In this document: positions 1,392-21,317 of the stretch, piece by piece
How positions within the stretch are numbered: the first letter of the stretch is position 1
Layout: each line of letters begins with the position of its first letter
NCBI GenBank assembly: GCA_009773315.1
Contig: WRPE01000021.1
Coordinates: forward strand, 1 to 48,552
Direction: 5' to 3'
DNA from: Syntrophaceae bacterium
Lineage (GTDB): Bacteria > Desulfobacterota > Syntrophia > Syntrophales > Smithellaceae
Length of the DNA stretch: 48,552 nt
The notes under the pieces: generated by a model
Databases searched by the model: none
Told to the model about the DNA's origin: nothing
Seen by the model: only the letters and a program-made list of their open reading frames with translations
Made by a program: the position numbers and the translations under genes

Positions 1392-1418
1392 ATTCTCTTA
1401 CCGGTCTAAGCCCACTTC

Positions 1419-2680: not shown

Positions 2681-2804
2681 AGGTATTTCCTCCAGGTTGT
2701 CGATCTATATCAGCTATTATTTTCAAAGGAAAGCGTTTATGATTTTTTGCCATGGCATCAATACAGCGACGCTGTAAGGAGAGGAGCAGGCGTCATTTAG
2801 TATT

Positions 2805-4115: not shown

Positions 4116-4221
4116 GGTGCAACCTTTAACACAGGATGTGGTAATTGGCAATCGATGACTGACTTCTTGATTTCAGGCGCGTTTTTGCGCAAGTTGTTGG
4201 ACAAGATTCTATGCTATCGGT

Positions 4222-5379: not shown

Positions 5380-6388
5380 CCGGGATATCCGTTTTGTTTA
5401 ACAGGGTAACCATTATTTTTATAATTTCCTGTGTTCCAACGCCTGTCACAGCAGAAAACGAATGCAGTATTATCCCCTTTTTTTTGAATCGCGCAACTTC
5501 TTTTTTAACCCGATCTCTTACATAAGGAAGATCAATCTTATTGATGGCCACGATTTGCGGCTTCGCCAGAAGCTCTGGATTGTAATGCCCGAGTTCATCG
5601 TTAATGGCTTTGAAGTTTTTCCACGCATCCACATTTGGTTCCATGGAAATATCAATGATGTGAAAGAGCAAAGACGTTCTTTCCACGTGTTTGAGGAACT
5701 GAATACCCATGCCCAGGCCTTCATGCGCTCCGGTAATCAGACCGGGAATGTCGGCCACAACGAAGCTTCGACTGTCCGCGTATTTGACTACGCCCAGATG
5801 TGGCGTGAGCGTGGTGAAAGGATAGTCGGCAATTTTGGGGCGGGCAGCCGAAACCCGCGAGATAAATGTGGACTTTCCCGCGTTAGGAAAACCGATGAGT
5901 CCCACATCCGCCAGCAGTTTGAGCTCCATCTTGAGCCAGCGTTCCTCGCCTTCGATTCCTTCCTGGGCAAAGCGCGGCGTCTGGTGCGTTGAAGATGTGA
6001 AATGGGCGTTGCCTTTCCCGCCGATTCCGCCTTTGGCCACGATAAAAGTTTGCCCCAACTCAGATAAATCGGCCAGGACTTTGCCGGTTTCAAAATCTTT
6101 CACAACAGTTCCTGGCGGAACAGTTACGATCAGATCTTCAGCGCCATGGCCGGTGCGGTTATTGCCGGATCCGTGTCTGCCATTTTTGGCGATCTGACGC
6201 TGCTGATATTTTAAATCCAGCAGGGTGTGATGGCTTCGATCCGCGCGAAAAATCACATCGCCGCCCTTGCCGCCGTCGCCGCCGTCGGGGCCGCCTTTGG
6301 GAACAAACTTTTCCCGCCGGAAGCTCACGCAGCCCGGACCGCCATGTCCGCCCTTCACAAATATCTTTGCTTCGTCAACGAATTTCAT
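5366..6388 (-). CDS. obg: Obg/CgtA ribosome-assembly GTPase
   Basis: 340 residues. The glycine-rich Obg fold (about 1-158, with repeated GGxGG stretches such as GGHGGPGCVSFRREKF) is followed by the GTPase domain: GFPNAGKST (G1), TTLTPHLG (G2), DIPGL (G3), NKID (G4) and SAVTG (G5). The C-terminal OCT domain seen in some Firmicutes is absent, as usual in Proteobacteria. Obg binds the 50S subunit late in assembly and responds to ppGpp. It lies downstream of rplU-rpmA, the standard order, but a strong hairpin with a T-run separates it from rpmA and probably lowers its expression. Confidence 0.96.
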   Translation of the reverse strand: MKFVDEAKIFVKGGHGGPGCVSFRREKFVPKGGPDGGDGGKGGDVIFRADRSHHTLLDLKYQQRQIAKNGRHGSGNNRTGHGAEDLIVTVPPGTVVKDFETGKVLADLSELGQTFIVAKGGIGGKGNAHFTSSTHQTPRFAQEGIEGEERWLKMELKLLADVGLIGFPNAGKSTFISRVSAARPKIADYPFTTLTPHLGVVKYADSRSFVVADIPGLITGAHEGLGMGIQFLKHVERTSLLFHIIDISMEPNVDAWKNFKAINDELGHYNPELLAKPQIVAINKIDLPYVRDRVKKEVARFKKKGIILHSFSAVTGVGTQEIIKIMVTLLNKTDIPDDHE

Positions 6389-6402
6389 AGGGTATCCAAA
6401 AC

Positions 6403-6429
6403 AAAAAGGCGCTTGATTTAAGCGCCTTT
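6403..6429 (-). terminator. Intrinsic terminator or attenuator between rpmA and obg
   Basis: A perfect 10-bp stem (6405-6414 with 6420-6429; arms AAAGGCGCTT and AAGCGCCTTT) with a 5-nt loop is followed on the minus strand by TTTTTGTTTT. As obg and proB lack an obvious promoter of their own, this is likely a partial terminator that keeps the abundant ribosomal-protein transcript from running fully into obg. Confidence 0.8.
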
Positions 6430-6455
6430 AAAATCTCCAGTATCCAGCTCATTTT

Positions 6456-6710
6456 TTATGAGGCGTAAACGCTGACCTTTTTTCGGGTTTTATCCAGTCT
6501 TTCATATTTTACAACGCCATTGATGAGCGCGAAAAGCGTGAAATCCTTCCCCAATCCGACGTTGTTGCCCGGATGAATTTTTGTTCCTACCTGCCGCACG
6601 ATAATGGACCCGGCGTGAATTTGTTCACCGCCATATACTTTGACGCCGCGTCTTTGCGCATTGGAGTCTCTACCGTTGCGGGAGCTTCCCTGACCTTTTT
6701 TATGTGCCAT
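6456..6710 (-). CDS. rpmA: 50S ribosomal protein L27
   Basis: 84 residues, normal L27 length. It starts [22 protein letters not shown], with the canonical N-terminal arm that reaches toward the peptidyl-transferase centre, and has the conserved [17 protein letters not shown] core. No Firmicute-type cleavable N-terminal extension is present. ATG 6710 is preceded by GGAGG. It lies 12 bp after rplU and is co-transcribed with it. Confidence 0.97.
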
Positions 6711-6722
6711 GATGTCCTCCGC

Positions 6723-7034
6723 TTATATCGAAATCTTCTTTATTTTCATGCTGGTTAACTGCTGGCGATGCCCGGTCTTCTTGCGATAACCCTTACGTCG
6801 TTTCATTTTGCCGATAATCAGCTTCGGGCCTTTTGTCTGAGAGACGACCTCGCCGATCACTTTGGCGCCTTCCAAAAGAGGTTTGCCGATTTTGACAGCG
6901 TTATCACCAGACACCATCAGAACTTCGTCAAAAACAATCTCGGTTCCTTTGTCCCCAGCAAGTTTTTCCACAAACAAAACATCACCCTCGCTGACCTTGT
7001 GCTGTTTTGCTCCTGTTTTTATGATTGCGTACAT
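6723..7034 (-). CDS. rplU: 50S ribosomal protein L21
   Basis: 103 residues, the standard bacterial length. It begins [18 protein letters not shown] and ends with the basic [16 protein letters not shown] segment that contacts 23S rRNA domain I. First gene of the rplU-rpmA-obg-proB unit, with AAGGAT upstream of the ATG and a consensus sigma70 promoter a few tens of bases away. Confidence 0.97.
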
Positions 7035-7066
7035 ATACTTATCCTTAGTTAACGTTAAGAATGAAG

Positions 7067-7095
7067 CTTATAGACAAATCAAGCCTGTTTGTCAA
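7067..7095 (-). promoter_or_regulatory. Strong sigma70 promoter of rplU-rpmA-obg-proB
   Basis: On the minus strand TTGACA (7095-7090) and TATAAG (7072-7067) are separated by exactly 17 bp. The predicted start of transcription would lie about 25 nt before the rplU ATG, a short leader with no room for an elaborate regulatory structure. Confidence 0.85.
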
Positions 7096-7375
7096 TAAAA
7101 TTCAGCTGTCTCATGAACATTTTCCGAAGACATGCTGCAATGGTGTTAATGTGTTTATATTACTAGGATTATTATGTTCCAGGACGGAAGAAGTGAACAC
7201 GATATGGAAAAAAACCAAGCCAGCCGGGGAAGCCTGGCACAAGACAGATGCGGTATTTATTGGACTAATCAAGACAGGTAGGAGGGGGGAATAAATCCGC
7301 TTGCATAAAATAGAATCGAAAATGTAGTATGGGCCGGTAAATCATCCTGGAGATTACACAAGCAGAGGTAGATGG
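7096..7375. other. Divergent intergenic region rplU / mltB
   Basis: I see no convincing gene here. A small plus-strand reading frame (7061-7294) has no ribosome site and overlaps the rplU promoter. A weak plus-strand promoter may serve mltB: TTGCAT 7301-7306, 18-bp spacer, TAGTAT 7325-7330. A modest hairpin (arms GCCAG and CTGGC) lies near 7215-7232. Confidence 0.4.
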
Positions 7376-8245
7376 GTGAAAAAAAAATTCATATACCTGA
7401 TCATCTTAGCCACTTTTTTATTGCTGTCCGCGCCTTTTGGCTTCGCCAGCGAGCCACAACGGCGGTTGGTCGAAGAATTGCTGATTGCGGAAGGACTCGA
7501 TCCGTCCCAAGCGCACAGAATCATGCAGGATTCCCGCGTATTCGTCCGTCCGGATATCGTCATAAAAAACCTTTTCTTTTCCAGTCCGAAAGGAACAGCC
7601 GGGAAACCCGATGTCATGGCGGTTGATCCGCGGCAGATAAAAAAGGGAAGAATTTTTATGAAAGAGAATGCCGATGTTTTATCCGCAGTGGAAAATCTTT
7701 TTGGCGTATCGCCTCGGATCATCACGGCCATTCTAATTATCGAGTCCAAGCTGGGATCCTATCCGATGCCCTATAACGTGGTTAACGCTTACGCCAATCT
7801 GGCCTTTTTGCTGGATCCGGGCTATCTGAAAGAAGTGCAGGATCGTTACGCGGTAGCTTATCCGCAGCTGCTGGACGACGCCACCATCGCCCGATCTAAA
7901 CGAAAAGCGAAGTGGGCGGTAGGCGAGTTGTGTTATCTTGTTCATATCGCCAATCACCTGAACATCGATCCCTTGAGTATTTCCGGGTCATTTGCCGGGG
8001 CACTGGGACCGGCGCAATTTATACCTTCTTCTTTTTGGATTTTTGGTATCGACGGCGACCGGGACGGTATGGCCAATCCCTTTAATATGACGGACGCGAA
8101 CCTCAGCATGGGTCATTATCTAAAGAAACACGGCTGGCGGGAGGATGCTCCCCTTGCGCAAAAGCGCAAGGCGCTCTGGTTTTACAACCGCAGTGACGTC
8201 TACGTGAATACGGTTATGATGATCTATGAACAATTGGGGCGGTAA
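7376..8245 (+). CDS. Periplasmic lytic murein transglycosylase, MltB family
   Basis: 289 residues with a Sec signal peptide (residues 1 to about 25, charged KKK then a hydrophobic stretch, ending GFAS). It has no lipobox, so it is probably soluble rather than anchored like E. coli MltB. The SLT_2 catalytic domain contains the Glu of the IIESKLGSYP motif (E123, aligned with the MltB catalytic Glu) and the conserved GALGPAQFIPSSF and DGDRDGMANPFN motifs. It cleaves peptidoglycan with formation of 1,6-anhydroMurNAc. The start is GTG with GAGG nearby. Monocistronic and convergent with the carboxyltransferase gene, 32 bp away. Confidence 0.9.
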   Translation: MKKKFIYLIILATFLLLSAPFGFASEPQRRLVEELLIAEGLDPSQAHRIMQDSRVFVRPDIVIKNLFFSSPKGTAGKPDVMAVDPRQIKKGRIFMKENADVLSAVENLFGVSPRIITAILIIESKLGSYPMPYNVVNAYANLAFLLDPGYLKEVQDRYAVAYPQLLDDATIARSKRKAKWAVGELCYLVHIANHLNIDPLSISGSFAGALGPAQFIPSSFWIFGIDGDRDGMANPFNMTDANLSMGHYLKKHGWREDAPLAQKRKALWFYNRSDVYVNTVMMIYEQLGR

Positions 8246-8277
8246 AAAAACGTCCCAGAGACACGTGTTCTTTTCTC

Positions 8278-9909
8278 TTACCACGGATCAATGAAAGGAT
8301 GCCGGGCATCCTGCGGTTGCCTTGCGGGCGCTGATTTAAGGCCTCGTATGAGCCACTTGCGGGTATCGGCAGGGTCAATGACCGCGTCGATTTCGAGATA
8401 AGCGGCCATGTTGATGGCTTTTCCTCGTTCATACAACTGGGCAACCAAAAAATCGTAGAGTTCTTCGCGCTTCTGGGGATCTTCAATGGCGGCTAACTCT
8501 TTTTTAAAACCGGCCTTCACTGCGCCTTCCAGCCCCATGCCGCCGAATTCTCCGGTGGGCCAGGCCGCTGTAAAGAATGATTCATGGAATCCCCCTTTGG
8601 CCATGGCCATAGCGCCAAGACCGTATCCTCTGCGCAACACAATGGTGAAATAGGGTACGGTGATGTGGGAGCCGATGACAAACATCCGGCAGACATGGCG
8701 CACCTGCGCACGTTTTTCGATTTCCGGCCCGACCATGAAGCCGGGTGTGTCGCAAAGAGACAAAATTGGCAATCCATGCGTATTACAAATTTGCATTAAG
8801 CGAGCCACCTTGTCCGCGCCTTCCGCTTCAATAGCGCCGGCCATGTGCATGCAGTTATTGGCGATAATCCCGAACGGACGGCCTTCGATTCGAAGTAATC
8901 CCGTGACCATGCTGAGGCCGAACTTGGGTTTGAGTTCCAGAAACGAATCCGTATCGGCGATGGCTTTGATGACGTTGCGGACGTTGTAAGTGCGCTTGCG
9001 GCTTTCCGGGATCAGTGTGCGCAATCGGAGAGGGTCGCCGGCTTCCCATGACGATGTTGCGCCTTGGAAATAGGACAGATATTTTTTTGCCGTGGCGACC
9101 GCTTCCACATCGTCTTCCACTTCAATATCAACCACGCCGTTTTGCGTCTGCACGTCCATCGGGCCGACGTCCTCCGGCTTGAAAACACCCAGGCCTCCGC
9201 CTTCAATCATGACCGGGCCGCCCATGCCGATGTTGGAGTTCTTCGTGGCAATGATCACATCACAGCAGCCCAGGAGTGCCGCATTTCCGGCAAAGCAGAG
9301 CCCCGATACAACGCCGACAACCGGTACGCGACCGCTCAGACCAGCGAATCCGCCAAAAGTTGATAGGTCCAGTCCCGCTACCATAACGCCTTCCGCGTCA
9401 ACGTCACCGGGCCTTCCGCCGCCGCCTTCCGCGAAGAAAACCAGCGGCAGATGCTGTTCATGCGCCAGATGCAACATGCGATCCATTTTTTTATGATTGA
9501 AAAACCCCTGAGTGCCGGCTAGCACAGTGTAGTCGTAGGCCATGACCATACAACGCGCCTTGTCTTCGGGGAAAAGCGAGCCGTTGACTGATCCGATACC
9601 GGCGATCAGGCCGTCGGTCGGGGTTTTGCTGATGAGGTCGTCCAGCGACCGGCGTCCGCGTTGCGCCGCAATGGCCAGAGCGCCGTATTCGATAAAACTG
9701 TCTCTATCGTACAGGTCTTCGATGTTGGTTCGGGCCGTGCGTTGATTCTTTTCCTGTCTTTTCGCCACCACAGCGGGGCGATGCTCATCAAGGCCAAAAG
9801 CATGTCGACGGATTACCTCGGCAAGGTCAGGGCGTATGGGATTGTTTTCGTTTTGTTGTGCCTCGGCAGGTTTTGATGCCACCTTGTCTTTTTCCTGATT
9901 TGTTTTCAT
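8278..9909 (-). CDS. Acyl-CoA carboxylase-type carboxyltransferase (beta subunit)
   Basis: 543 residues covering both crotonase-like halves of the biotin-dependent carboxyltransferase family (PccB/MccB/GcdA type). Visible signatures are the N-half GGGGRPGDVDAEG and SGLCFAGNAALLGCCD and the C-half CDTPGFMVGPEIEKR with RRGYGLGAMAM. The enzyme moves CO2 between carboxybiotin and an acyl-CoA. No biotin carboxylase, biotin carrier or Na+-pump subunit is nearby, so direction (carboxylation or decarboxylation) and substrate are open. ATG 9909 has GGGAG upstream; 105 bp separate it from the CoA-transferase before it, where a TATAAT-like element could be an internal promoter. Last gene of the LIV/CoA-transferase operon. 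Confidence 0.85.
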   Translation of the reverse strand: MKTNQEKDKVASKPAEAQQNENNPIRPDLAEVIRRHAFGLDEHRPAVVAKRQEKNQRTARTNIEDLYDRDSFIEYGALAIAAQRGRRSLDDLISKTPTDGLIAGIGSVNGSLFPEDKARCMVMAYDYTVLAGTQGFFNHKKMDRMLHLAHEQHLPLVFFAEGGGGRPGDVDAEGVMVAGLDLSTFGGFAGLSGRVPVVGVVSGLCFAGNAALLGCCDVIIATKNSNIGMGGPVMIEGGGLGVFKPEDVGPMDVQTQNGVVDIEVEDDVEAVATAKKYLSYFQGATSSWEAGDPLRLRTLIPESRKRTYNVRNVIKAIADTDSFLELKPKFGLSMVTGLLRIEGRPFGIIANNCMHMAGAIEAEGADKVARLMQICNTHGLPILSLCDTPGFMVGPEIEKRAQVRHVCRMFVIGSHITVPYFTIVLRRGYGLGAMAMAKGGFHESFFTAAWPTGEFGGMGLEGAVKAGFKKELAAIEDPQKREELYDFLVAQLYERGKAINMAAYLEIDAVIDPADTRKWLIRGLKSAPARQPQDARHPFIDPW

Positions 9910-10014
9910 ATTATGGATGCTCCCGTGTTGGTTGTATACTCATTATAGTATTGGTCCACCCGTCTTCTTGCTTGTCGGGCCGGACGGTTTCGATGTTTCC
10001 GATGTTATAATTAT

Positions 10015-11364
10015 TTATTTTTTGACTAGTCCATATTTTTCAAAAACATAGTCATTATCTTCGCCGATATTCGCAGAAATCCATTTCACCCTGAGGGGCG
10101 TTTTAGTCATCTTCCCGGTTGTAGGCAATGTCACGATCCCATAGGAGGGATGGGCGATTTTCGGAAAAGTCCCGCGTGTTTGCCAGTGTTCTTCCTGAAG
10201 GACTTCATCAGGCGTCATCATTTTCGTCGTGACGGGAAGTCCACCGCCCCGCCATTTGGAGCCGGCTGCTTTGACGCTGTAAGATGCAAATTTTTCGTTA
10301 ATCTGTTTGTAGGTAAATTTACTGACGGCTTTCTCCACCACGCTGTTGAGTTCTTTGACCTTTTCGACATCATCCGTGATCCGGTCGAGGAGCGTTTTCC
10401 ATTCTTCTTCGATTTTCCATTGGCCCAGAAGTTTTAGGGCCGCACGAAAATCCTGATCGCGGAAGCAGGCAATGGCTACATAACCATCCTGGCACTTGAA
10501 GAATCCATATGGGCACAGCCCGTAATCAAGCGTTCCGTAGCGAAGCCTCGGTTTCTTCCACACATAGCCGATCGTTGGGGGAAATCCGACACAGGACGCG
10601 TAGGCGTCGGCCGTAGCGATATCAATCATCTGTCCTTCACCTGTCCGGCGCTTGAAGAAAGAGGCAACCAGCCCGCCGCAGGCCGCTCCAACCGCGGAGG
10701 TGTATCCGGCAGCATAAAACCCGGCGCGGGTCGGCCAATTATAAGGTTCCGGCGCATCCGGAAGGTCGCCGACCAGCGCGGCAAGACCCGACTCCGCCTG
10801 CGAGGTCAGGTCTGTCCAGGGCATCTCGGCCATTTCTCTGCCTTTGGCCGTGTAATGCCCGTAAGGCGAAATGGCGATATAGATGAGACCGGGATTAAGT
10901 TCCCGCAATTGCCGGTAGCCGATTCCCCAGGCATCCATCTGGCCTGGAGCATAGGTTTCAATGAGTATATCAGCCCGTTTGACGAGGCGTTTGAGATTGC
11001 CCTGGTCTTCGGGGCTTTCCAAATCCAGGGTGATCTGGCGTTTGTTACGGCTTTCCATCAGGTAGGGAATGCCGACGCCCTTCACATTGGCCCCGTAAGG
11101 GCTCATGATGCGCGATGGATCTCCTTCCGGAGGCTCAATATTGATAACCTCTGCGCCGGCTTCGGCCAGAAAACTCGCGGTGACGTTTCCGGAAAAATTA
11201 GCGTAACTCAGATCGAGGACCATCATATCATCCAGGGCTTCCGGCTTTCCTTCGGAGGTGGTCAATTGCGTTAGAATATTTTTCCAGTCGGACAGTTTGG
11301 ACGCGCCTTTTTTCTGCAGGTATCTTGAATAAACTCGCTCTTTAATGGTCCTCACCTCCTTCAT
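10015..11364 (-). CDS. CaiB/BaiF family III CoA-transferase, subunit lacking the catalytic Asp
   Basis: About 449 residues with the family III fold: MVLDLSYANFSGNVTASFLAEAGAEVINIEPP near residue 48 and YGHYTAKG near 168. Where active members have a Gly-Asp followed by a small-residue helix, this protein reads PYNWPTRAGFYAAG (Thr/Arg about residues 212-213), so the nucleophilic Asp that carries the acyl-anhydride and glutamyl-type intermediates seems absent. It is coupled to the second CoA-transferase gene just upstream and is probably its non-catalytic partner, as in the two-subunit BbsEF-type enzymes. ATG 11364 has no ribosome site; a perfect AAGGAGGTGA lies inside the frame before an ATT at 11346, which may be the true start. 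Confidence 0.8.
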   Translation of the reverse strand: MKEVRTIKERVYSRYLQKKGASKLSDWKNILTQLTTSEGKPEALDDMMVLDLSYANFSGNVTASFLAEAGAEVINIEPPEGDPSRIMSPYGANVKGVGIPYLMESRNKRQITLDLESPEDQGNLKRLVKRADILIETYAPGQMDAWGIGYRQLRELNPGLIYIAISPYGHYTAKGREMAEMPWTDLTSQAESGLAALVGDLPDAPEPYNWPTRAGFYAAGYTSAVGAACGGLVASFFKRRTGEGQMIDIATADAYASCVGFPPTIGYVWKKPRLRYGTLDYGLCPYGFFKCQDGYVAIACFRDQDFRAALKLLGQWKIEEEWKTLLDRITDDVEKVKELNSVVEKAVSKFTYKQINEKFASYSVKAAGSKWRGGGLPVTTKMMTPDEVLQEEHWQTRGTFPKIAHPSYGIVTLPTTGKMTKTPLRVKWISANIGEDNDYVFEKYGLVKK

Positions 11365-12700
11365 AATTAAACATTCTATCCTTGGACAGGTCGTGGTAGA
11401 TCGGCGGTCTCTGACCGACCCGATAATCCCAGGTGCCCACGACCCGTTCTTTTTCCAGATCCTTAATCTGATCCTCCGTCAATCCCAGAATTTTCTTGAA
11501 GACGTAGCGGTTATGATAGCCGAGCGGACGGGTCAGCCATTTGATTCTGCCCGGTGTCTTGCTGAGCATGGCGATCGGTCCTTCCACGAGCAGCTTTTTA
11601 TACATGTCATCTTCAAACAGAATTGCGCTGCCCCTTTCCTCGCGCCATTTGTCCTGGCTGATCTGCACGTCGTCCATGACTTCTGCTGCGGCAAACCGGT
11701 GCTTCTTGGCCAATCCGGACAATTCCTGCACGTCCTTGGTGATGACCCATTCCTCAAGAACTTTATTCAAGGCCAGCGCATTTTCGCGTTTGAGCCGGCT
11801 TGCGGCTTTTTTATAGGTATCGTTCTCGGCAAGGTCCTCGCGGCTGAGGGCTTTGCAAAACGATTGAAATTGCTTATCCGTGGCAATGGCGACGGCCACA
11901 AATTTTCCGTCACGCGTTTTAAATATCCCCGAGGGAGACATGGTCGGGTCCATGTTGCCGGTGCGCCCCAGGCTTTCACCGGTGGCGTCGTGGTACGTGA
12001 AATGACTGAGTGTCCGCATCAGGATTTCCGCCTGACAGCCGTCGATATACTGTCCCTCTCCGGAGCGTTCCCGGTAGTTGAGGGCAATGAGGATGAGCAT
12101 GGCCGCGTAATAAGCCGGGAAAAAATCACCAAAAAAATCGGGAACCTTAAAATATTTATCGGTGTCCGGATGACCGGTGACCGACAGGACGCCGCTTGCG
12201 CCCTGAGCCAAAAGATCCCATCCCGGAGCGTACCTGCGCGGGCCGAATTGCCCGTAAGTGCTGAGGCTTGCGTAAATGACTTTCGGATTGATTTTGCTCA
12301 CCTGGGAATAACCGATGCCCCAGGCTTCCACCGTTCCGGAGGTGAAATTTTCGATGATGATGTCGGCTTTTGCGGCCAGTTGCAGAATCAGATCCTTGCC
12401 TTTTGGTTTTTTAACATCAATGCCGACGAAATATTTACCGGGATTGATGAAATGCCAGAGAGGGTTGGAATGCTTCCAGTACTTGCCCCAGTAAGTTCCG
12501 CCCCGCCAGTAGTCTCCCTGGTTGGGGACTTCCACCTTAATCACTTCGGCACCATACTGCGCCAGGGTCTTTGCCGCCGTCGGCCCGAAAATCATATGGG
12601 ACAAATCAAGCACTCGAATGCCTTTGAGTGCTTCCGCCTTTTTGTCGATGTCTTCTCGGGCAAAAAGCTTGTCTGTAAAATTAAAATAATCTTTAGTCAT
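11342..12700 (-). CDS. CaiB/BaiF family III CoA-transferase, catalytic subunit
   Basis: 452 residues. It has the typical LKGIRVLDLSHMIFGPTAAK start (about 26-45), VIIxNF-like loop (IIIENFTSGTVEAWG) and YGQFGP motif. The active-site segment FFGDFFPAYYAA keeps the Gly-Asp (D192), so this member should be able to transfer CoA between carboxylic acids. It starts 2 bp after livF and overlaps the next CoA-transferase by 3 to 23 bp depending on that start. Together the pair probably activates the acid imported by the Liv proteins, using succinyl-CoA, acetyl-CoA or a product CoA-thioester as donor; the substrate is unknown. Confidence 0.85.
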   Translation of the reverse strand: MTKDYFNFTDKLFAREDIDKKAEALKGIRVLDLSHMIFGPTAAKTLAQYGAEVIKVEVPNQGDYWRGGTYWGKYWKHSNPLWHFINPGKYFVGIDVKKPKGKDLILQLAAKADIIIENFTSGTVEAWGIGYSQVSKINPKVIYASLSTYGQFGPRRYAPGWDLLAQGASGVLSVTGHPDTDKYFKVPDFFGDFFPAYYAAMLILIALNYRERSGEGQYIDGCQAEILMRTLSHFTYHDATGESLGRTGNMDPTMSPSGIFKTRDGKFVAVAIATDKQFQSFCKALSREDLAENDTYKKAASRLKRENALALNKVLEEWVITKDVQELSGLAKKHRFAAAEVMDDVQISQDKWREERGSAILFEDDMYKKLLVEGPIAMLSKTPGRIKWLTRPLGYHNRYVFKKILGLTEDQIKDLEKERVVGTWDYRVGQRPPIYHDLSKDRMFNYEGGEDH

Positions 12701-12702
12701 TA

Positions 12703-13407
12703 TTACATTCCTATATAGGCTTTCTTGACCAGTTCGCTGTTCAGCAGAAATTGACTTGTTCCTGTGAGAACGATGTGACCGTCCTGCAACACATAGCCTC
12801 GGGTGGCAATTTCCAGGGCATAAAGCGCATTTTGTTCCGACAGGAGCACGGTAATTCCATTAGCGGGGAAGGTTTTGATAACATCGTAAATCTTTGACAT
12901 GATGAGCGGGCTTAGCCCCAAGGAAGGCTCATCGATCATCAGCAGTTTCGGTTGGGACATCAATCCGCGGGCAATAACCAGCATCTGCTGCTCGCCTCCG
13001 CTCATCAGACTGGCCCGTTGGCCGGCGCGCTCTTTCAGGATGGGGAAGAGGTTACAGACCTTCTCCATCATTTCCTTCCTTTTTTTCCAGGCCTTTTTCG
13101 TGCTGGCTCCCATCAGCAAATTTTCCTTCACGGTCAGATAAGGGAAAATTTTCCTTCCTTCGGGAATCTGGGATATGCCTTGTTTGACGATGTTATCGGA
13201 GGACTCCTTTTGGATGTCTTCACCCAAAAACGAGATGGTTCCTGTTTTGGCGGGCAGAACCCCCGATATATTGTTGAGCAATGTTGTTTTCCCCGCGCCG
13301 TTCGCGCCCAGGAGGGCGACAATCTCTCCTTGATTGATCTGTAGATTGACGTCGTGAAGGACAGGAATCACGCCATAGGCGGCGTTCAGGTTGTTAATGC
13401 TGAGCAT
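12703..13407 (-). CDS. livF: Branched-chain-type ABC transporter ATPase LivF
   Basis: About 234 residues, one complete ABC domain: Walker A GANGAGKTT, signature LMSGGEQQM, Walker B LLMIDEPSLGLSP and the LivF-type ending with ATRGYVLQDGHIVLTGT. ATG 13407 was chosen because GGAGG lies 5 nt upstream and the family begins MLxxxxLxAxYG; the longer frame adds eight residues overlapping livG. Its start overlaps the end of livG by 14 bp, indicating coupled translation. With LivG it powers the LivHM permease. 'Branched-chain amino acid' is only the family name; members also import aromatic and short-chain acids, urea and amides. Confidence 0.92.
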   Translation of the reverse strand: MLSINNLNAAYGVIPVLHDVNLQINQGEIVALLGANGAGKTTLLNNISGVLPAKTGTISFLGEDIQKESSDNIVKQGISQIPEGRKIFPYLTVKENLLMGASTKKAWKKRKEMMEKVCNLFPILKERAGQRASLMSGGEQQMLVIARGLMSQPKLLMIDEPSLGLSPLIMSKIYDVIKTFPANGITVLLSEQNALYALEIATRGYVLQDGHIVLTGTSQFLLNSELVKKAYIGM

Positions 13408-14128
13408 GACGGCCTCCCAGATAGGCTTCAATGATTTTGGGGTCCGAGGTCACTTCCCGAGGCGGACCTTCTGCGATCTTTTTGCCGTATTGAAGAACGA
13501 CAACCCGTTGGGTCGCATTCATGATGATTTTCATGACGTGTTCGATCCACAAAATGGTAAAGGCAAACTGTTCCTGAGCACTCCAGATCATATCCAGCGC
13601 CCGCGACGCCTCCGTCGGATTGAGGCCGGCCATGACTTCATCCAGAAGCAGTAGCTTCGGTGTGGTAGCCAGCGCCCGGGCCAGTTCCAACATGCGCAAT
13701 TCATAGAGATTCAAATCACGCGCCAGGGTGTCCCGCTTGGAGAAGAGCCCCACGAATTCCAGATAGTAGGAAGCCTCCAGGGCCGCATCGGGAACGCTCA
13801 TGTTGGGACGATGCTTCCCGTTTAAGACGCCGACCATCACCCCGGCCAGGGCGGTCATGGATTCGAAGGGCTGGGGGATCTGATATGTCCGGGAGATGCC
13901 GAGCCAGCATATTTTATGGCTGGGAAGCCCTGTGATATCCGTTCCGTCAAAGCGGATCGTCCCGTGATCGGGCTTGTAAATGCCGCAGATCAGGTTTAAC
14001 ATCGTGGTTTTTCCGGCGCCGTTAGGCCCGATTAAGCCTACAACTTCACCCTCGGCAACGGAAAAGCTGACGTCGCTCACAGCGGCAAGCCCACCAAAAT
14101 TTTTCGATACAGTCGTTATCTCCAGCAC
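13394..14128 (-). CDS. livG: Branched-chain-type ABC transporter ATPase LivG
   Basis: 244 residues. Walker A GPNGAGKTTMLNLICG, a LivG-specific insertion around ISRTYQIPQPFESMTALAGVMVG, a degenerate signature LYELRMLELARAL in place of LSGGQ, Walker B LLLLDEVMAGLNP with Val instead of Pro after the Glu, and a C-terminal EAYLGG tail. The weakened signature (no SGG) is unusual for this family and may make one composite ATP site less active, but LivF retains a full set. Lies 4 bp after livM and overlaps livF. Confidence 0.9.
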   Translation of the reverse strand: MLEITTVSKNFGGLAAVSDVSFSVAEGEVVGLIGPNGAGKTTMLNLICGIYKPDHGTIRFDGTDITGLPSHKICWLGISRTYQIPQPFESMTALAGVMVGVLNGKHRPNMSVPDAALEASYYLEFVGLFSKRDTLARDLNLYELRMLELARALATTPKLLLLDEVMAGLNPTEASRALDMIWSAQEQFAFTILWIEHVMKIIMNATQRVVVLQYGKKIAEGPPREVTSDPKIIEAYLGGRHAQH

Positions 14129-14132
14129 AGTG

Positions 14133-15176
14133 CTATTCTCTCCTTACATGCAGTTTTGGAAAATAATCCCGGGGACGCTTTTTCTTATAGAGGCCCCACA
14201 GTCCTTCTCCACGGGGAAGAAAAACTATCAGTGCAATCAGAATCAGAGGGAACACGAAGTAGTTCACGGGACCGAGCCCCCTGAGAGAATCTTCGAGAAT
14301 GGAGATCAGATAAGCCCCGGGAATCGCGCCATAGAGAAAAGCTCTTCCCCCGACAATGACGATGATCAGGATCTTCGTCATAAAATCCAGAGGAAGATAG
14401 GTTACGCCGGCGAAAGTGCGGAAGGTGTGGACGATGAACCAGCCGGCGATTCCGGTCAGGATGGACGGCGCTACGTAAAAGAAGATTTTGTAAGCATCCA
14501 CTCTCACGCCCATCATGCGGGCGACGTTTTCATTTTCGTTGACCGCTGCCATACTGATCCCTATCCGCGAGCGTACCGTCCGGTCGCAGAAGAGGAGATA
14601 CGTCAGCATCAGAAACAGGGAAAGATAGTAATAAGCAATGTAATTCCAGGAAACCTTTTCAAATGTCAAAAGCGGACTCATGCCCACGAGACCCACTTCT
14701 CCGCGGAAGAGATCTCCCCAGATGTAGGTGACATCCAGAAAAGTCAGCGGCAGAATCAAGGTAATAAGCGAAAAATAAAGTCCTTTGGCAATCAGGGTGG
14801 TCGGACTCAAAGCGAGCGCGATGACTGCACAGACGGTAATCGTTGCCGCAAGCGTCATGGCGGGACTCCAGCCGAAATGGAGGTTCAGCAGGGCGGCTGT
14901 GTAACCGCCGATTCCCAGGTAGAGCTGCGGACCGAAATTGACCCGACCGGTTCCCAGCATCTGAAGCGCCAGGGGAATAGCAATAGCCGCGTAAAGATTG
15001 GCCGTGGTGAACATGGTCAGGATGTGCGGATAGGAACGGACGAATAGGGGCAGCATCAGCAGAATACTGATGCCGATAATCGGATTTCTCCAGTAACGCG
15101 GTTCAATCACCCATTCCGTTTTCTTGTCCCGCCAGCGGGCGACAATGCGATCGCGGCGTAATTCAAAGTTTACCAT
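14133..15176 (-). CDS. livM: Branched-chain-type ABC permease LivM
   Basis: 347 residues with about ten hydrophobic helices. The N-terminal cytoplasmic part (1-28) is charged. LivM hallmarks are ALQMLGTGRVNFGPQLYLGIGGYTAALL and the coupling segment RSRIGISMAAVNENENVARMMGV, which contacts the ATPases. It overlaps livH by 7 bp. Forms the channel with LivH in the inner membrane. Confidence 0.92.
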   Translation of the reverse strand: MVNFELRRDRIVARWRDKKTEWVIEPRYWRNPIIGISILLMLPLFVRSYPHILTMFTTANLYAAIAIPLALQMLGTGRVNFGPQLYLGIGGYTAALLNLHFGWSPAMTLAATITVCAVIALALSPTTLIAKGLYFSLITLILPLTFLDVTYIWGDLFRGEVGLVGMSPLLTFEKVSWNYIAYYYLSLFLMLTYLLFCDRTVRSRIGISMAAVNENENVARMMGVRVDAYKIFFYVAPSILTGIAGWFIVHTFRTFAGVTYLPLDFMTKILIIVIVGGRAFLYGAIPGAYLISILEDSLRGLGPVNYFVFPLILIALIVFLPRGEGLWGLYKKKRPRDYFPKLHVRRE

Positions 15177-16045
15177 AAGGTCTCTCCTGCAAAAATACCC
15201 CCGCGACGATATATCATCACCACCAGCGTGACGATTAAGGCGGCAAGCCCCATGAAGCGGGACACAAAGATGAAGCTGACCGAGGCATGGATGAATCCGA
15301 TCAGGTAAGAAGCCACAATGCTTCCCTTGAGATTGCCTAGACCCCCGAGAATGGAGATCAGCATTGCGGTCATCAGGAGGGACGCGCCCATGAATGGATC
15401 AACGCCCCAGAAAGGCGCGATCATAATCATACAGATGGTCGGGGGGATCACCGAGAGGATCATGGCCAGATAGTACATCCGGTTGACATTCGCCCCCATG
15501 AGCAGGGCTGCCGGCAGGTTCTGACTGATGGCCCGGATGACCAGGCCGACTCTTGTTTTCATGAACCACAGCACATAGATTGCCGTCACCAGGATTCCCG
15601 CCAGCGCGGCAAGAATCATCTGGTAGGCAATGGTGACACCGCCGATGGAGAGGACGTCGTCAATGATCGTCGAAGGAATGCTGACGCCGGCCGTGACAGG
15701 ATATAAATAGTTGGCCAGATGGGCGACGGCAAGAAAAATGAGAATCGAGACGGTCAGGAGAACTTCCTCCTCTTCCATGTAGCGTTGAAAAACGCCTTTG
15801 TAAAAGATAATAAGAGCGAAAACGCACTGGACCAGAAACATGAGCAGGATGCTGGGCACAAATCCCAAGTGCGCGTCCTCCATAAAGAACCAGGTGACAT
15901 AAGCGGCCAGAATAAATACTACACCGTATCCCAGATGAAAGATACGGAGCACCCCGCAGATGAGCGAGAAGCCAAGGGATATCAGGAGGTAGATGGAACC
16001 CCAAATGACCGTGTAGATAATAATCTGCAGAAGGATATTACTCAT
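15170..16045 (-). CDS. livH: Branched-chain-type ABC permease LivH
   Basis: 291 residues and about eight helices. It has the LivH start YLLISLGFSLICGVLRIFHLGYG and the coupling loop KTRVGLVIRAISQNLPAALLMGANVNRMY followed by the SILGGLGNLKGSIVASYLIG motif. It starts 160 bp after the binding-protein gene; between them lies a hairpin that may set the ratio of binding protein to permease. Confidence 0.92.
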   Translation of the reverse strand: MSNILLQIIIYTVIWGSIYLLISLGFSLICGVLRIFHLGYGVVFILAAYVTWFFMEDAHLGFVPSILLMFLVQCVFALIIFYKGVFQRYMEEEEVLLTVSILIFLAVAHLANYLYPVTAGVSIPSTIIDDVLSIGGVTIAYQMILAALAGILVTAIYVLWFMKTRVGLVIRAISQNLPAALLMGANVNRMYYLAMILSVIPPTICMIMIAPFWGVDPFMGASLLMTAMLISILGGLGNLKGSIVASYLIGFIHASVSFIFVSRFMGLAALIVTLVVMIYRRGGIFAGETLW

Positions 16046-16158
16046 AGGGTCCGCGCCCCCTTTATATTATCTGAAATTGCCGGGTATGAGGCAAATAATG
16101 TTGAAAAAACTGCGACACCGGATCACCCTGACCAAAAACGAATGAAGAGTTTTGATAT

Positions 16159-16199
16159 CGGGGAATCCGCGCGAGCCTTTGCCCGCAGCGGATTCTCCG
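16159..16199 (-). terminator. Stem-loop between binding-protein gene and livH (attenuator or mRNA-stabilising)
   Basis: Arms 16159-16170 (CGGGGAATCCGC) and 16188-16199 (GCGGATTCTCCG) pair over 12 bp with one mismatch around a 17-nt loop. There is no following T-run on the minus strand. It lies 6 bp after the stop of the binding-protein gene. In ABC operons such hairpins commonly protect the upstream mRNA 3' end, giving excess binding protein; that role is inferred here. Confidence 0.55.
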
Positions 16200-16205
16200 T
16201 ACGGG

Positions 16206-17468
16206 TTATTTTCGCAAATCCTTCGGTGCCTTGTAATCAGCCATTTTATACTTCAGGGGGTAGATGACTTTCATTTCACCATCCTGCCACTGGACGATAG
16301 GCGTTACGTACTTGGGTGGGGGAAGGTTGTAATGGTATTTCGCGTCCCAGCCGATGGTGCCCAGAACAGCCACTTCTTCAACCTGCTCCAATTGTTTAAT
16401 CAGATTGTCAATGTTACCCGTTCCGCCGGCTTTTTCGATGGCTTTCTTGAAACCGTATATGGTGTCGTAGGTTGTGTGGGAACCGAAGATAGGACCGACC
16501 TTATAATTTTTTACCAGATTATCCATGAAGGGAATCGTCTTGGGTGTGATGGCCACTCTGACCAGAGAAGACCCAACCATAATGCCGTTTACTTTACCTT
16601 CCGTCATTTTCCAGATCGGAGGCATGCCGGCGAGCCCTCCCCAGATAAATACGGGGATATTTCGCGCACTCGATTGAGCCCATTGTTTAACAAAAGCCGG
16701 TTGATCAATGTAACCGACGGCACAGTCGATGAAATCGGCTCCGGATTTGGCGATTTCTTCAAAGATAGGGTTAAACATCTTCTGATCGAGAGACGTGGTT
16801 GTCTCATAAACGACATTGACTCCCTTTCCCTTATAGATGGCCGCCAGGGATGGAGAAACGTTGGGAATGCCTTGACGCAGGGGTTTGGTCCACTCCATGT
16901 CTTCATATAGAATGGCCACTTTTTTGATTTTGATCTGGTTCTTGAAGCAATCGATGTTATCGGGCGCCAAAATCTTCAGATAATTAGTAGAGATGGCATA
17001 ATATGTCTGGAAGCCGAACCGGTATTTTTTATAGTTGTCGCGCACGCGATGCCAGATGTCGTCTCCGGAACCGATCGTGCTGAAGAAGATGTGCGGGTAT
17101 TCGGGAAACAGCTCCGCTCCGATCTCCATGCCGGCTACACCCATTTCCACTTTTTCCCCGATGAAGACAGCCAGTACCCGGTCGTTCATGACCAGTTTTT
17201 TGTAAATTTCAACGGCTTTGGGAATTTCTCCTTTGGTGTCTTCGACGATCAGTTTGATTTGTCGTCCGTTAATGCCGCCCGCTTGATTGATTTCATCAAC
17301 GGCCATCGCCGCTGCAGCCTTGGCGCTTAGTGAAAAGGGAGCAGACATGTTCCCCATGAAGCCGATTTTGATTGGCCCGGTTGTGTCTGGGCTCGCCGCC
17401 CAGACTCCTGTGGTGATCAGCAGAAAAACTAAAACCATTGCGGTAAACAGATGTATCTTTTTCATCAT
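16206..17468 (-). CDS. LIV-type periplasmic substrate-binding protein
   Basis: About 420 residues. A Sec signal peptide (MKKIHLFTAMVLVFLLITTGVWA, cleaved near residue 24) is followed by a Peripla_BP_6 fold: GPIKIGFMGNMSAPFSLSAKAAAAMAVDEINQAGG, then IYKKLVMNDRVLAVFIGEKVEMGV. I chose ATG 17468 because GGGAGG lies 4 nt upstream; the longer frame from 17537 would place residues across the promoter. It is the first gene of the Liv/CoA-transferase/carboxyltransferase operon and would deliver the ligand to LivHM. The ligand cannot be predicted from residues I can see. Confidence 0.9.
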   Translation of the reverse strand: MMKKIHLFTAMVLVFLLITTGVWAASPDTTGPIKIGFMGNMSAPFSLSAKAAAAMAVDEINQAGGINGRQIKLIVEDTKGEIPKAVEIYKKLVMNDRVLAVFIGEKVEMGVAGMEIGAELFPEYPHIFFSTIGSGDDIWHRVRDNYKKYRFGFQTYYAISTNYLKILAPDNIDCFKNQIKIKKVAILYEDMEWTKPLRQGIPNVSPSLAAIYKGKGVNVVYETTTSLDQKMFNPIFEEIAKSGADFIDCAVGYIDQPAFVKQWAQSSARNIPVFIWGGLAGMPPIWKMTEGKVNGIMVGSSLVRVAITPKTIPFMDNLVKNYKVGPIFGSHTTYDTIYGFKKAIEKAGGTGNIDNLIKQLEQVEEVAVLGTIGWDAKYHYNLPPPKYVTPIVQWQDGEMKVIYPLKYKMADYKAPKDLRK

Positions 17469-17535
17469 GCTTCCTCCCTTTATTTTAAGTATTTTTCTGA
17501 TAAAAACGCCATTCCCGTAAAACTCTATAACAAAC

Positions 17536-17565
17536 ACTATACAAAACTAAGTTACCCGGTGTCAA
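17536..17565 (-). promoter_or_regulatory. Sigma70 promoter of the Liv/CoA-transferase operon
   Basis: On the minus strand TTGACA (17565-17560), an 18-bp spacer and TATAGT (17541-17536). This places the transcription start about 60 nt before the binding-protein ATG. An imperfect AT-rich palindrome (about 17566-17579) abuts the -35 box and could be an operator for the divergent TetR. Confidence 0.75.
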
Positions 17566-17756: not shown

Positions 17757-18401
17757 ATGAAAGTCAAGGATAAGAGTGACCACAGAACAGCAAAAGGCAA
17801 TAAAAAAAACCTTGTATCTGAATCACGGCAGCAGATTCTGGACGCGGCCCTTGGGCTGTTTGCACAAAAGGGATATGCCGCGACAACCATACGGGAAATC
17901 GTGGATACGGTGGGAATAACCGCGCCCTCCCTTTATTATTACTTCGGCAACAAGGAAGGTCTCTACAGGGAGCTCATGCAGACCTATTCTGCCAAGATCG
18001 ATTCGGTGCTGGAGTCGCATTTGCACACATCCGAATGCGCGAAAAACCGATTGAAAGACCTTGTCGACAAGATCTTTCTCCGTGTCATTGAAGACAAGAA
18101 TTTTTTTCGGTTGATGTTTACCATTTACTATGGCCCGTCTAATGGCGCGCCCTATTGTGATTTCATTTTGTATCATGTGAAGATTCACGCAGCGATTAAA
18201 AAAATTATTGAAGACGGCATCGCAGCCAAGGAATTTCAACCAGGCAATTCAGGACACATGACCTGGATCATCAGGGGCGTGGTTCAATTGGCCATGGAAG
18301 AGCAAATCAAAGATGATCGGGAAAAAATAGACCGGCAGAGATTGCAGAAGATTCTCGATCTTATTGTGGATCGTTTCGGCAGACCGCCTTCAATCGCCTG
18401 A
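17757..18401 (+). CDS. TetR/AcrR-family transcriptional regulator
   Basis: 214 residues. The N-terminal helix-turn-helix (about 22-70) is textbook TetR: SRQQILDAALGLFAQKGYAATTIREIVDTVGITAPSLYYYFGNKEGLY. The C-terminal ligand domain contains the MFTIYYGPSNGAP segment and is otherwise divergent. It is divergent from the Liv/CoA-transferase operon with matching promoters, so it is likely a repressor relieved by an acyl-CoA or acid intermediate, and probably autoregulated. The ATG has GAAGG upstream. The gene is followed at once by a truncated dehydrogenase tail, so its original downstream partner has been lost. Confidence 0.9.
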   Translation: MKVKDKSDHRTAKGNKKNLVSESRQQILDAALGLFAQKGYAATTIREIVDTVGITAPSLYYYFGNKEGLYRELMQTYSAKIDSVLESHLHTSECAKNRLKDLVDKIFLRVIEDKNFFRLMFTIYYGPSNGAPYCDFILYHVKIHAAIKKIIEDGIAAKEFQPGNSGHMTWIIRGVVQLAMEEQIKDDREKIDRQRLQKILDLIVDRFGRPPSIA

Positions 18402-18743: not shown

Positions 18744-19985
18744 ATGAAGTATCTGAAGGTGATGGTTTGTTTGGTTGCTGCTGTTTTTTTCATGTCATGG
18801 GCGGGAAATAGTAAGGCTGATGAAATTGTCATAGGTTATACCGGTCCGCTCAGTGGCGTGGCAGCGGAATACGGGCAGGATATCCTAAGCGGTGTTGATA
18901 TGGCTGTTAAGGACATCAATGCAGCCGGTGGAATTACGGTTGGCGGGAAGAAATACACATTTAAACTTGAAAGACTTGATGACCGTATTGACCCCACGCA
19001 AGCGGTTAATAACGCCCGTCGTTTCAAGTCGAATAAAGCTATCGCGGTTTTCAATGGTGTTTTCAATACGCTCGCTCCCATGATGAAAATCAATGAGGAA
19101 AAGGGCAACGAGTTCATCGTGATGGCCTATACCAGCACCCCAAAGGTAACGGAGATGGGCAATAAATTGGTGGTAGCCACTACAGTTGATTTTACCACCT
19201 ATGTTCATGTCTTTGCCGATTGGGCGTTTAAAAAGGGATGGAAGAACTGCGCCATGGTTGTCACTCTGGGCGCCTATGGCGATGAGTGGAGAAGTGCATT
19301 TAAAGAATATTGGATAAAGAAGGGCGGCGTCATTACCACAGATAAGCCGGCTAATTATTTCACGGAAACAGACTTTTCTGCTCCGCTCGCTGCCGCCATC
19401 GCCACCAAACCGGATGTCATGCTGATCGGCGGACCTTCAGCCACAACGGCACTGGTGATTGAACAGGCCAGAAGCATGGGCTTCAAAGGTGGTTTTATTA
19501 TGGTCGATCAGGCCAAGCAGGATTACATTGCTAAATTACTCGGAGGCACCAAGGTAATGGGCAATCTGATTGGTACAGGTGGAGTCGTGAGTGTTCCATT
19601 CCCTGGTGCAACAATTTTCGAAAAGAGATATCCTGAACAGTACAAGAAAATGGTCACATGGGAGTGCGCCCTCAATTACACAGCCATGCATGCTCTGGCT
19701 CGTGCAATCGAAGCCTCAGGGACAGTTGATGATGTATATAAGATTCGTGATGCATTTCCCACGGCACTGGCTAACGGGTTGCTGGGTGATAAATTCCCCA
19801 ATGAAGTGTTTGGCATCGAGAAATCCGGACGTATGCATGTTGCAGCATCCACCCAGACTATTACGAATGGAAAATCCGATCCATCAACACTCTACGTTTG
19901 GTGGCCAAAGACCCAAAAAGAATTTGATCTAGTTAAGAAACGGTCAACGGCAAAACAAAATGAGAGCATTTGGATGAGGTTTTAA
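18744..19985 (+). CDS. Orphan LIV-type periplasmic substrate-binding protein
   Basis: 413 residues. Signal peptide 1 to about 25 (KYLKVMVCLVAAVFFMSWAGNSKA), then the Peripla_BP_6 fold beginning EIVIGYTGPLSGVAAEYGQDILSGVDMAVKDINAAGG. It is only distantly similar to the binding protein at 16206-17468, so it is not a recent duplicate. GAGGAGGG lies 7 nt before the ATG and a strong terminator follows. No permease or ATPase genes accompany it; it may use the LivHMGF system nearby or a distant one, giving that importer a second ligand. Confidence 0.88.
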   Translation: MKYLKVMVCLVAAVFFMSWAGNSKADEIVIGYTGPLSGVAAEYGQDILSGVDMAVKDINAAGGITVGGKKYTFKLERLDDRIDPTQAVNNARRFKSNKAIAVFNGVFNTLAPMMKINEEKGNEFIVMAYTSTPKVTEMGNKLVVATTVDFTTYVHVFADWAFKKGWKNCAMVVTLGAYGDEWRSAFKEYWIKKGGVITTDKPANYFTETDFSAPLAAAIATKPDVMLIGGPSATTALVIEQARSMGFKGGFIMVDQAKQDYIAKLLGGTKVMGNLIGTGGVVSVPFPGATIFEKRYPEQYKKMVTWECALNYTAMHALARAIEASGTVDDVYKIRDAFPTALANGLLGDKFPNEVFGIEKSGRMHVAASTQTITNGKSDPSTLYVWWPKTQKEFDLVKKRSTAKQNESIWMRF

Positions 19986-20108: not shown

Positions 20109-21317
20109 TTAATTACCGGCAACCAATATCACACTTTTTTTTCGGAGCGCTTCAATTTCTTCCTGTTTGTAGCCGATTTCTTGCAGAATGGATTTTGTGT
20201 CTTCTCCCAGAGCGGGCGATGGTCCGGAGGGCTGGGCCGGTGTGGCGGAGAATTTCAGGGGAACGCCAATGCCCTTGATCTTGCCGCAGACCGGATGCGC
20301 TTGTTCGTAAATCATCTGCCGCGCCTGCATTTGCGGGTCTTTTTCAACTTCTGAAATATCCAGTACGGGCGTCAGGCAAATATCCAAGTTTTTCGTTGCG
20401 ACCATCCATTCATCCCTTGTCTTGATTCGGAAAAGAGCGGCGATCTCTTTGCGCAGGTGATCAGCCTCTTCTCCCATCACCAGATGTTTCTCCAGCCACT
20501 CAGGATGACCGGCCATTTCGCAAAATATTTTCCAGAACTTGGCCTCCAGCAGGCCCAAAGCAATATATTTGCCGTCGGCGCATGGATAAACGCCATAACA
20601 GGCCAACCCTCCGGAAAGGGGCGGCTCTCCCGGCGCAAAGGTTATTTTGGTCGCCTGATAATGTGCCATCTGCAGGGTCATCAGCGGAAGGACGGCATCC
20701 AGCATGGCGACATCGACTCTTTGACCCTGGCCGGTTTTTTCTCTCGTCCAGAGGGCTGTGAGACAGCCAATCATGGACATATAGGCGCCACCCGCCACAT
20801 CACCAAGTTGAGGGCCGGGGAGGACGGGACCTGTTTGGGCTAAGCCGGTTGTCGACAGGATTCCCGCGTATCCGATAAAATTGATATCGTGTCCGGCATC
20901 CCTGGCATAAGGCCCGTTCTGGCCGTATCCGGTGAGCGAAATATAGATAATATCAGGCTTCAACCGCTTTGCTGCTTCATAGCCAATGCCTTGTTCATCC
21001 AGCACGCCGGGTCGGAACTGTTCGATGACAATGTCCGCCGTTTTCAAAAGAGAGAAGAAAATATCAACGCCCTCTTTTGTTTTTAGATTCAGGGCCAGAC
21101 TGCGCTTAGAGCGGTTAACGGCGATAAAGCCTGCGGATTCCGATTCCAGATAGGGAGGATAGGATCGCATATAGTCCGGCGCGTTCATGTCTTCAATCTT
21201 GATGACATCGGCCCCCATGTCGGCCAGCATCATCGTACCCAGAGGTCCGGGATAAAGCCGGGTAAGATCAAGAATGCGGATGCCCTGCAAAGGGCCGTTT
21301 TGAGGCTTTCTTTCCAT
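20109..21317 (-). CDS. CaiB/BaiF family protein, alpha-methylacyl-CoA racemase-like
   Basis: 402 residues. It starts GIRILDLTRLYPGPLGTMMLADMGADVIKIE, the family III N-terminus. Both residues that act in alpha-methylacyl-CoA racemases are present: His143 in the AGHDINFIGYAG motif and Asp173 in QLGDVAGG. It is therefore likely a racemase of 2-methyl-branched acyl-CoAs, although CoA-transferase activity is possible since Asp173 is also the transferase nucleophile. It differs strongly from the two CoA-transferases at 10-12.7 kb. It lies 66 bp after the ATP-PPase gene with a large hairpin between, and is convergent with the orphan binding protein. Confidence 0.85.
   Translation of the reverse strand: MERKPQNGPLQGIRILDLTRLYPGPLGTMMLADMGADVIKIEDMNAPDYMRSYPPYLESESAGFIAVNRSKRSLALNLKTKEGVDIFFSLLKTADIVIEQFRPGVLDEQGIGYEAAKRLKPDIIYISLTGYGQNGPYARDAGHDINFIGYAGILSTTGLAQTGPVLPGPQLGDVAGGAYMSMIGCLTALWTREKTGQGQRVDVAMLDAVLPLMTLQMAHYQATKITFAPGEPPLSGGLACYGVYPCADGKYIALGLLEAKFWKIFCEMAGHPEWLEKHLVMGEEADHLRKEIAALFRIKTRDEWMVATKNLDICLTPVLDISEVEKDPQMQARQMIYEQAHPVCGKIKGIGVPLKFSATPAQPSGPSPALGEDTKSILQEIGYKQEEIEALRKKSVILVAGN

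Follow-up and report, generated by a model that had tools for sequence, protein, structure and literature searches.

A conserved LIV-type importer and putative two-subunit CoA-transferase module beside a stand-alone carboxyltransferase in Smithellaceae

Two-subunit class III coenzyme A (CoA)-transferases carry the catalytic aspartate in only one of their subunits. BbsEF, the succinyl-CoA:(R)-benzylsuccinate CoA-transferase (PDB ID 9fn0), has two related subunits of the CaiB/BaiF type. LIV-type ATP-binding cassette (ABC) importers of aromatic and organic acids are represented by the Rhodopseudomonas substrate-binding proteins (SBPs) 4evq and 4eyg. Long-chain acyl-CoA carboxylase (LCC; 4rcn) is a single chain in which biotin carboxylase (BC), biotin carboxyl carrier protein (BCCP), and carboxyltransferase (CT) are fused; PMC6491548 reports activity of LCC on C2 to C16 acyl-CoAs. 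Relatives of these systems lie side by side on contig WRPE01000021.1 of a Syntrophaceae bacterium, a relative of the syntroph Smithella, assigned to the family Smithellaceae (assembly GCA_009773315.1). The window analyzed here is this whole contig of 48,552 nucleotides (C63 in our numbering, in which G, L, and C denote genomes, loci, and contigs); the genome is 2.98 Mb in 86 contigs, with completeness given as 100%.

An original prediction, made from the letters of the window, described eight genes at 8278-17468 as one operon for uptake, CoA activation, and (de)carboxylation of a single acid. Its gene inventory, namely, a LIV importer, two CaiB/BaiF proteins, a CT, and a divergent TetR, was confirmed by open reading frames (ORFs) and Pfam; all eight genes are on the minus strand, and each ORF has a Pfam family assignment. 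The reading that we favor on balance, judging by gene order and distribution, is a smaller one: seven genes would form an import and CoA-exchange module that sits beside an older CT and probably serves a TetR-controlled slot. The module, its proposed boundary, and the neighboring CT are as follows.

16206..17468, minus strand: SBP, LIV-type periplasmic binding protein, first gene of the module (Peripla_BP_6, 112 bits)
15170..16045, minus strand: LivH-type permease (BPD_transp_2)
14133..15176, minus strand: LivM-type permease (BPD_transp_2)
13394..14128, minus strand: LivG-type ATPase (ABC_tran and BCA_ABC_TP_C; best NCBIfam model LivG, below cut-off)
12703..13431, minus strand: LivF-type ATPase (ABC_tran; best NCBIfam model LivF, below cut-off)
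11342..12700, minus strand: CoAT_A, CaiB/BaiF subunit with putative catalytic Asp192 (CoA_transf_3, 319 bits)
10015..11364, minus strand: CoAT_B, CaiB/BaiF subunit without the Asp (CoA_transf_3, 258 bits)
9910..10014, minus strand: gap of 105 bp between CoAT_B and CT, the proposed module boundary
8278..9909, minus strand: CT, stand-alone carboxyltransferase of the LCC/single-chain carboxylase family, neighbor of the module (Carboxyl_trans, 257 bits)

Orthologues of CoAT_A, at least 68% identical, are present in ten genomes including this one: 8 of the 51 genomes examined in the family, and two more among the 297 examined in the phylum. The complete order SBP-LivH-LivM-LivG-LivF-CoAT_A-CoAT_B is retained in nine of the ten, and in the tenth (G341) the contig begins inside LivG. 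SBP orthologues aligned from 7 other genomes are 76-98% identical. The loci were retrieved via CoAT_A, and the informative part is the importer genes and CoAT_B that accompany it; gene maps were redone by tblastn for most loci, with L109, L110, and L114-L126 resting on a crude ORF map. The importer genes and CoAT_B keep the same order in other genomes, and the arrangement is not a product of chance. The proposal that importer and two-subunit CoA-transferase make one unit is supported by this conserved order and by the restriction of the Asp to one subunit.

The five importer genes make up a complete LIV/HAAT-type ABC set (an SBP, two BPD_transp_2 permeases, and two ABC ATPases), and the LIV-type NCBIfam models that match the importer proteins all do so under their own cut-offs. 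The SBP starts at the ATG at 17468, behind ggagg, the GTG at 17537 being only the mechanical ORF start. Spacing from SBP to CoAT_B ranges from overlaps to gaps of up to 160 bp.

A paralogous module is found in the same genome on contig C23 (L062:4916-12378), with the SBP gene last and no CT beside it. This type also occurs in relatives, with a CoAT_A about 54-60% identical and the SBP gene at the opposite end. No CT was found in the 8 paralogous loci read (L062, L109, L110, L111, L112, L113, L128, and L247, some of them on short contigs), and so the importer plus the CaiB/BaiF pair is the recurring unit. The C23 copy of CoAT_A is 88% identical to that of Smithellaceae bacterium STF1_109, the nearest of the named loci to the paralogous module; this value lies within the same-genus range of 86-92% and makes membership of the organism in Smithellaceae very probable. 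More distant A/B pairs, 34-40% identical, are adjacent in seven of 13 loci on the crude ORF map and lack this importer, and so the CoA-transferase pair is older than the module. A plasmid origin of the module was considered and rejected, the best plasmid record covering just 3%. In G291 (L112), the paralogous module is followed by two tandem SBP genes.

Residue 192 of CoAT_A, which we take to be the catalytic Asp of class III CoA-transferases, is Asp in all 14 aligned homologues, and the CoAT_B residue aligned to it is Gly in 3 of 14 and Trp in 11 of 14. Adjacent CaiB/BaiF genes with the Asp confined to one subunit support a true heteromeric pair of CoAT_A and CoAT_B, and the suggestion that CoA exchange replaces a ligase inside the unit is likewise supported. 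Compared with solved structures, CoAT_A scores 169 bits with 10uh, 162 with 4hl6, and 148 with 9fn0 chain B (89 with chain A), and CoAT_B scores 110 bits with 9br6 and 92 with 9fn0 chain A (79 with chain B). Given that CoAT_A and CoAT_B pair with chains B and A of BbsEF, respectively, and that single-subunit enzymes outscore both chains, the comparison supports a heteromeric character but not a benzylsuccinate function. The presence of these two chains among the better solved relatives is what would speak for a benzylsuccinate/alkylsuccinate-type hydrocarbon module with a BbsEF-like transferase, a reading that we consider very improbable. No PFL-like (glycyl-radical) gene was found genome-wide with a family model that detects in three of the 14 controls, in a search that did not extend to the other bbs genes, and the lack of such a gene would mean that there is no BssA/AssA-type enzyme. 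Two CoAT_A relatives were flagged with one TGA each; a selenocysteine or pseudogene reading was rejected, as the TGA is the terminal stop.

The distribution of the CT differs from that of the module. The CT occurs in 34 of the 51 family genomes, with the orthologous module beside it in five and not in the other 29. Module and CT are adjacent in all five module carriers of this genus and in none of the five outside it; three of the latter (G301, G291, and G192) have the CT on other contigs, and the remaining two (G302 and G303) gave no CT match at E 1e-120. This distribution across the family points to the CT as a resident gene beside which the module arrived or was kept. The CT would then be older than the module at this locus and would be a separate subunit for acyl-CoA (de)carboxylation.

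The inclusion of the CT in the same unit is accordingly not supported in the form originally predicted. A single transcription unit of all eight genes, for the uptake of one acid, its activation by CoA exchange, and (de)carboxylation of the resulting CoA ester by the CT, is possible, though we give it a lower probability than a module of seven genes next to a resident CT. Such a unit is in keeping with the common strand, the gap of 105 bp in which the terminator scan listed nothing, the constant adjacency within the genus, and a run in G058 (L070, described below) that unites importer, ligase, and CT. It is at odds with the five orthologous loci outside the genus and the 8 paralogous loci, including the one in this very genome, that have the module and no adjacent CT, with the two carrier genomes that gave no CT match at E 1e-120, and with the 29 CT holders that have no orthologous module alongside. 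The CoAT_B-CT gap widens to about 295 bp in the relative G327, and in this genome it contains a weak promoter-like match (9/12, at 9938-9910) that ends at the CT start codon. A functional link between the module and the CT is nonetheless possible.

The other side of the module, with the regulator and the genes beyond it, is laid out as follows.

17565-17536, minus strand: putative promoter TTGACA-18-TATAGT, overlapped by the TetR-operator-like palindrome at 17526-17543
17757..18401, plus strand: divergent TetR-family regulator (TetR_N, 69 bits)
18744..19985, plus strand: SBP2, second LIV-type SBP, part of the older CT/TetR neighborhood (Peripla_BP_6, 135 bits)
20109..21317, minus strand: CoAT_C, third CaiB/BaiF protein, part of the older neighborhood

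Twelve CT loci were read out of the 15 CT holders in the genus, and they reveal an older neighborhood, MltB-CT-(slot)-TetR-SDR-SBP2-CoAT_C-GuaA, that is eroded to varying degrees. In five loci the slot between CT and TetR is occupied by the module (G000, G340, G337, and G327, with G341 visible on the CT side only), in two by an AMP-forming acyl-CoA ligase (G229 and G332), and in two it is empty (G325 and G326); in the remaining three (G067, G334, and G335) no TetR was found beside the CT. TetR stays near the CT without the module in G325, G326, G229, and G332, and SBP2 is present in G229, G332, G335, and G340 and is cut off in G337. The occurrence of a ligase at this position in two sister genomes suggests that acid activation for the same local pathway may have passed to the module. 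SBP2 has no transporter genes beside it, and SBP2 and CoAT_C, which lie on the far side of TetR and were absent from the original prediction, are also found in relatives that lack the module. CoAT_C is a near-tie between a racemase (8rmw, 204 bits) and a CoA-transferase (9br7, 199.5 bits).

The putative promoter of the module provides evidence for regulation by TetR. A palindrome in the leader of TetR is common to four relatives that lack the module at this locus, and a symmetric matrix built from those four sites only has its top match, out of 48,535 window positions, at 17526-17543, overlying the -10 region of the putative module promoter. With the module promoter site ranked first in this way, the predicted link to the divergent TetR is likely. 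The site scores 12.59 here, and the corresponding sites score 14.0 in G337 and 12.3 in G327; when the 288-bp intergenic region was dinucleotide-shuffled 5000 times, 115 of the shuffles reached the score of the site. Control of the module by this TetR thus appears moderately supported.

The SBP model (mean pLDDT 80.8) has its best PDB match in 3h5l (Z 37.8) and resembles LIV-type SBPs with many different ligands to about the same degree; an assignment of the substrate from the fold was rejected, since all 1000 aligned chains have Z of at least 8 and there is no discrimination. The LIV fold and the leucine-binding proteins among the Foldseek and VIA matches might be read as indicating a module for branched-chain amino acids or their keto acids, with the CaiB/BaiF pair incidental, but the matches to proteins that bind urea, pyroglutamate, hydroxybenzoates, and an oxo acid are about as good, and we hold this reading to be improbable. 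It is further disfavored by Gly277, which in the HMMER alignment replaces the acidic residue of the 4gnr GGDG loop; this position is Gly in 14 of 15 SBPs and Ser in one. The acidic residue of 4gnr presumably binds the amino group of the ligand, and if that role holds for the aligned residue, Gly277 makes an alpha-amino acid a less likely ligand.

In the sister genus g202, the module is followed by genes for a 4-hydroxybutyryl-CoA dehydratase-like protein (333 bits to 1u8v), enoyl-CoA hydratase, and 3-hydroxyacyl-CoA dehydrogenase, with TetR2 also alongside. This context may hint at a hydroxy or unsaturated fatty acid. It is a mere hint because the dehydratase family is large and because TetR2 and the dehydratase occur together without the module in six of seven further loci (L279-L284; L285 has the dehydratase without TetR2), of which L284 and L285 belong to the genome studied here. 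Genes of this dehydratase-like (HpaB/AbfD) type are expanded throughout the family, with up to 11 matches per genome (e.g., L278), and the copy at L242:12407-13870 retains the residues aligned with CxxxC and HxxxxxxC of 1u8v, which we assume to be the cluster ligands.

The solved relatives nearest to the CT are 4rcn (636 bits) and 5fif (632 bits), followed by the methylmalonyl-CoA carboxyltransferase 12S at 202 bits. An assignment as mmdA, the methylmalonyl-CoA decarboxylase alpha subunit, failed (TIGR01117, 227 bits against a cut-off of 998.8), and no OAD_beta gene was found near the CT, the single OAD_beta of the genome being on contig C4 beside another CT. The CT is mostly stand-alone in the family, and G327 and G334 additionally carry a fused second copy; in distant phylum members, the CT-bearing open frame is 1103-1585 amino acids long, and the one checked with Pfam (L051) is BC-BCCP-CT. 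In a tree of 43 rows, including 5 outgroup and 12 fused rows, 23 stand-alone rows form one group (88/91), three stand apart, and the 12 fused rows form one group (90/84). Rows were labeled by open-frame length and identity, stops were converted to X, the partial row L037 was dropped by length, and further fused and stand-alone copies were left out. The tree does not give the order of fusion and fission, because its root is the midpoint. A nitronate monooxygenase-family gene lies directly upstream of the CT in two genomes of genus g3 (L045:9014-9904 and L253:879-1769), labeled by Pfam for L253 and by a similar N terminus for L045.

The original prediction also stated that a biotin carboxylase was missing, which is correct for the operon; the genome has two. 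One is on C23 beside a PYC_OADA-biotin protein, as in two-subunit pyruvate carboxylase, and the other is a BC-BCCP protein on C60 beside another CT. The best match in the genome to the BC part of a fused homologue is a general BC, at 44%, and a biotin carrier shared with the CT is possible. Across the family, a search with PF02785, which detects in 13 of 14 controls, found no BC in 15 of the 34 CT-bearing genomes versus 7 of the 17 without CT (Fisher p 1.0), indicating that CT and BC are unlinked. Among the 17 CT holders with a listed completeness of 95% or more and contamination of 5% or less, no BC was found in five (G326, G331, G030, G310, and G313), and in all of these except G331, whose CT is a 348-residue piece, OAD_beta was not found either; these four are listed as 95-100% complete draft genomes (the CT loci of G030, G310, and G326 are L043, L252, and L257). 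A protein search for BC agrees with PF02785 except in G318 (PF02785 only) and G304 (protein search only). The absence of BC is provisional, the assemblies being drafts, and this pattern is, provisionally, hard to square with an ordinary carboxylase role of the CT. The family thus poses the question of what a carboxyltransferase does in near-complete draft genomes with no detected biotin carboxylase. One bold answer, which we regard as unlikely, is that the stand-alone LCC-type CT would be a BC-free decarboxylase or transcarboxylase for acyl-CoA dicarboxylates that is coupled, in this genus, to an import and CoA-exchange cassette displacing the ATP-consuming ligase. If true, this would be an energy-saving syntroph route for uptake, activation, and decarboxylation of a dicarboxylic acid.

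Under the favored reading of a seven-gene module beside an older CT, the LIV-type importer would bring in a carboxylic acid, and CoAT_A and CoAT_B would act as a heteromeric class III CoA-transferase, with the covalent intermediate on Asp192 of CoAT_A and with CoAT_B as the noncatalytic partner. By analogy with the family, the donor in the CoA exchange would be a cellular thioester, for example, succinyl-, acetyl-, or butyryl-CoA. In the ligase slot between CT and TetR, the module probably supplies the activated acid under control of that TetR; the CT may or may not use the same thioester, and its biotin partner, if any, would come from elsewhere in the genome.

Several observations count against this reading. 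The presence of CoAT_A in the compared loci is by construction, since they were fetched through CoAT_A. The single-subunit transferases outscore 9fn0 for CoAT_A (169 versus 148 bits) and for CoAT_B (110 versus 92). The exchange of ligase for module is a matter of position in few genomes (ligase in two, module in five, empty in two, and without TetR in three), and a chance insertion would explain it as well. At the promoter, the operator site is weaker in G340 (7.99), the palindrome in the own leader of TetR is degraded in this genome (rank 14), and one operator pattern was written after the site had been seen. Should the reading hold, CoA activation by this portable import-and-activate cassette would cost no ATP, which would suit energy-starved syntrophs, and its SBP would offer a direct handle on the substrate.

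A partial parallel is found in a distant family, where locus L070 of G058 (342-11363) has thiolase-LivG-AMP-ligase-LivH-LivM-SBP-LivF-CT-3-hydroxyacyl-CoA dehydrogenase in one run. Like the locus described here, it joins an importer, acid activation, and a CT; it differs in having a ligase instead of a CoA-transferase, a CT that is just 36-38% identical, and the additional thiolase and 3-hydroxyacyl-CoA dehydrogenase. This independent combination shows that such joining also occurs elsewhere.

Compared with characterized systems, the module resembles the Rhodopseudomonas importers in SBP fold and five-gene make-up, at 16% identity of the SBP to both 4evq and 4eyg (11-21% over the rows listed), and unlike organic-acid LIV importers it has a CoA-transferase pair encoded in the same unit. 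It shares with BbsEF the two related CaiB/BaiF subunits, but here they are encoded with a LIV importer, in a genome in which no glycyl-radical enzyme was found. The CT aligns with 4rcn and 5fif over nearly its whole length, and whereas the single-chain enzyme is a three-part fusion, the CT here is a separate 543-amino-acid protein with the CT domain only. The titles and abstract openings listed in literature searches gave no mention of a LIV importer combined with a two-subunit CoA-transferase. The single parts of the module are already known; what is new is their combination.

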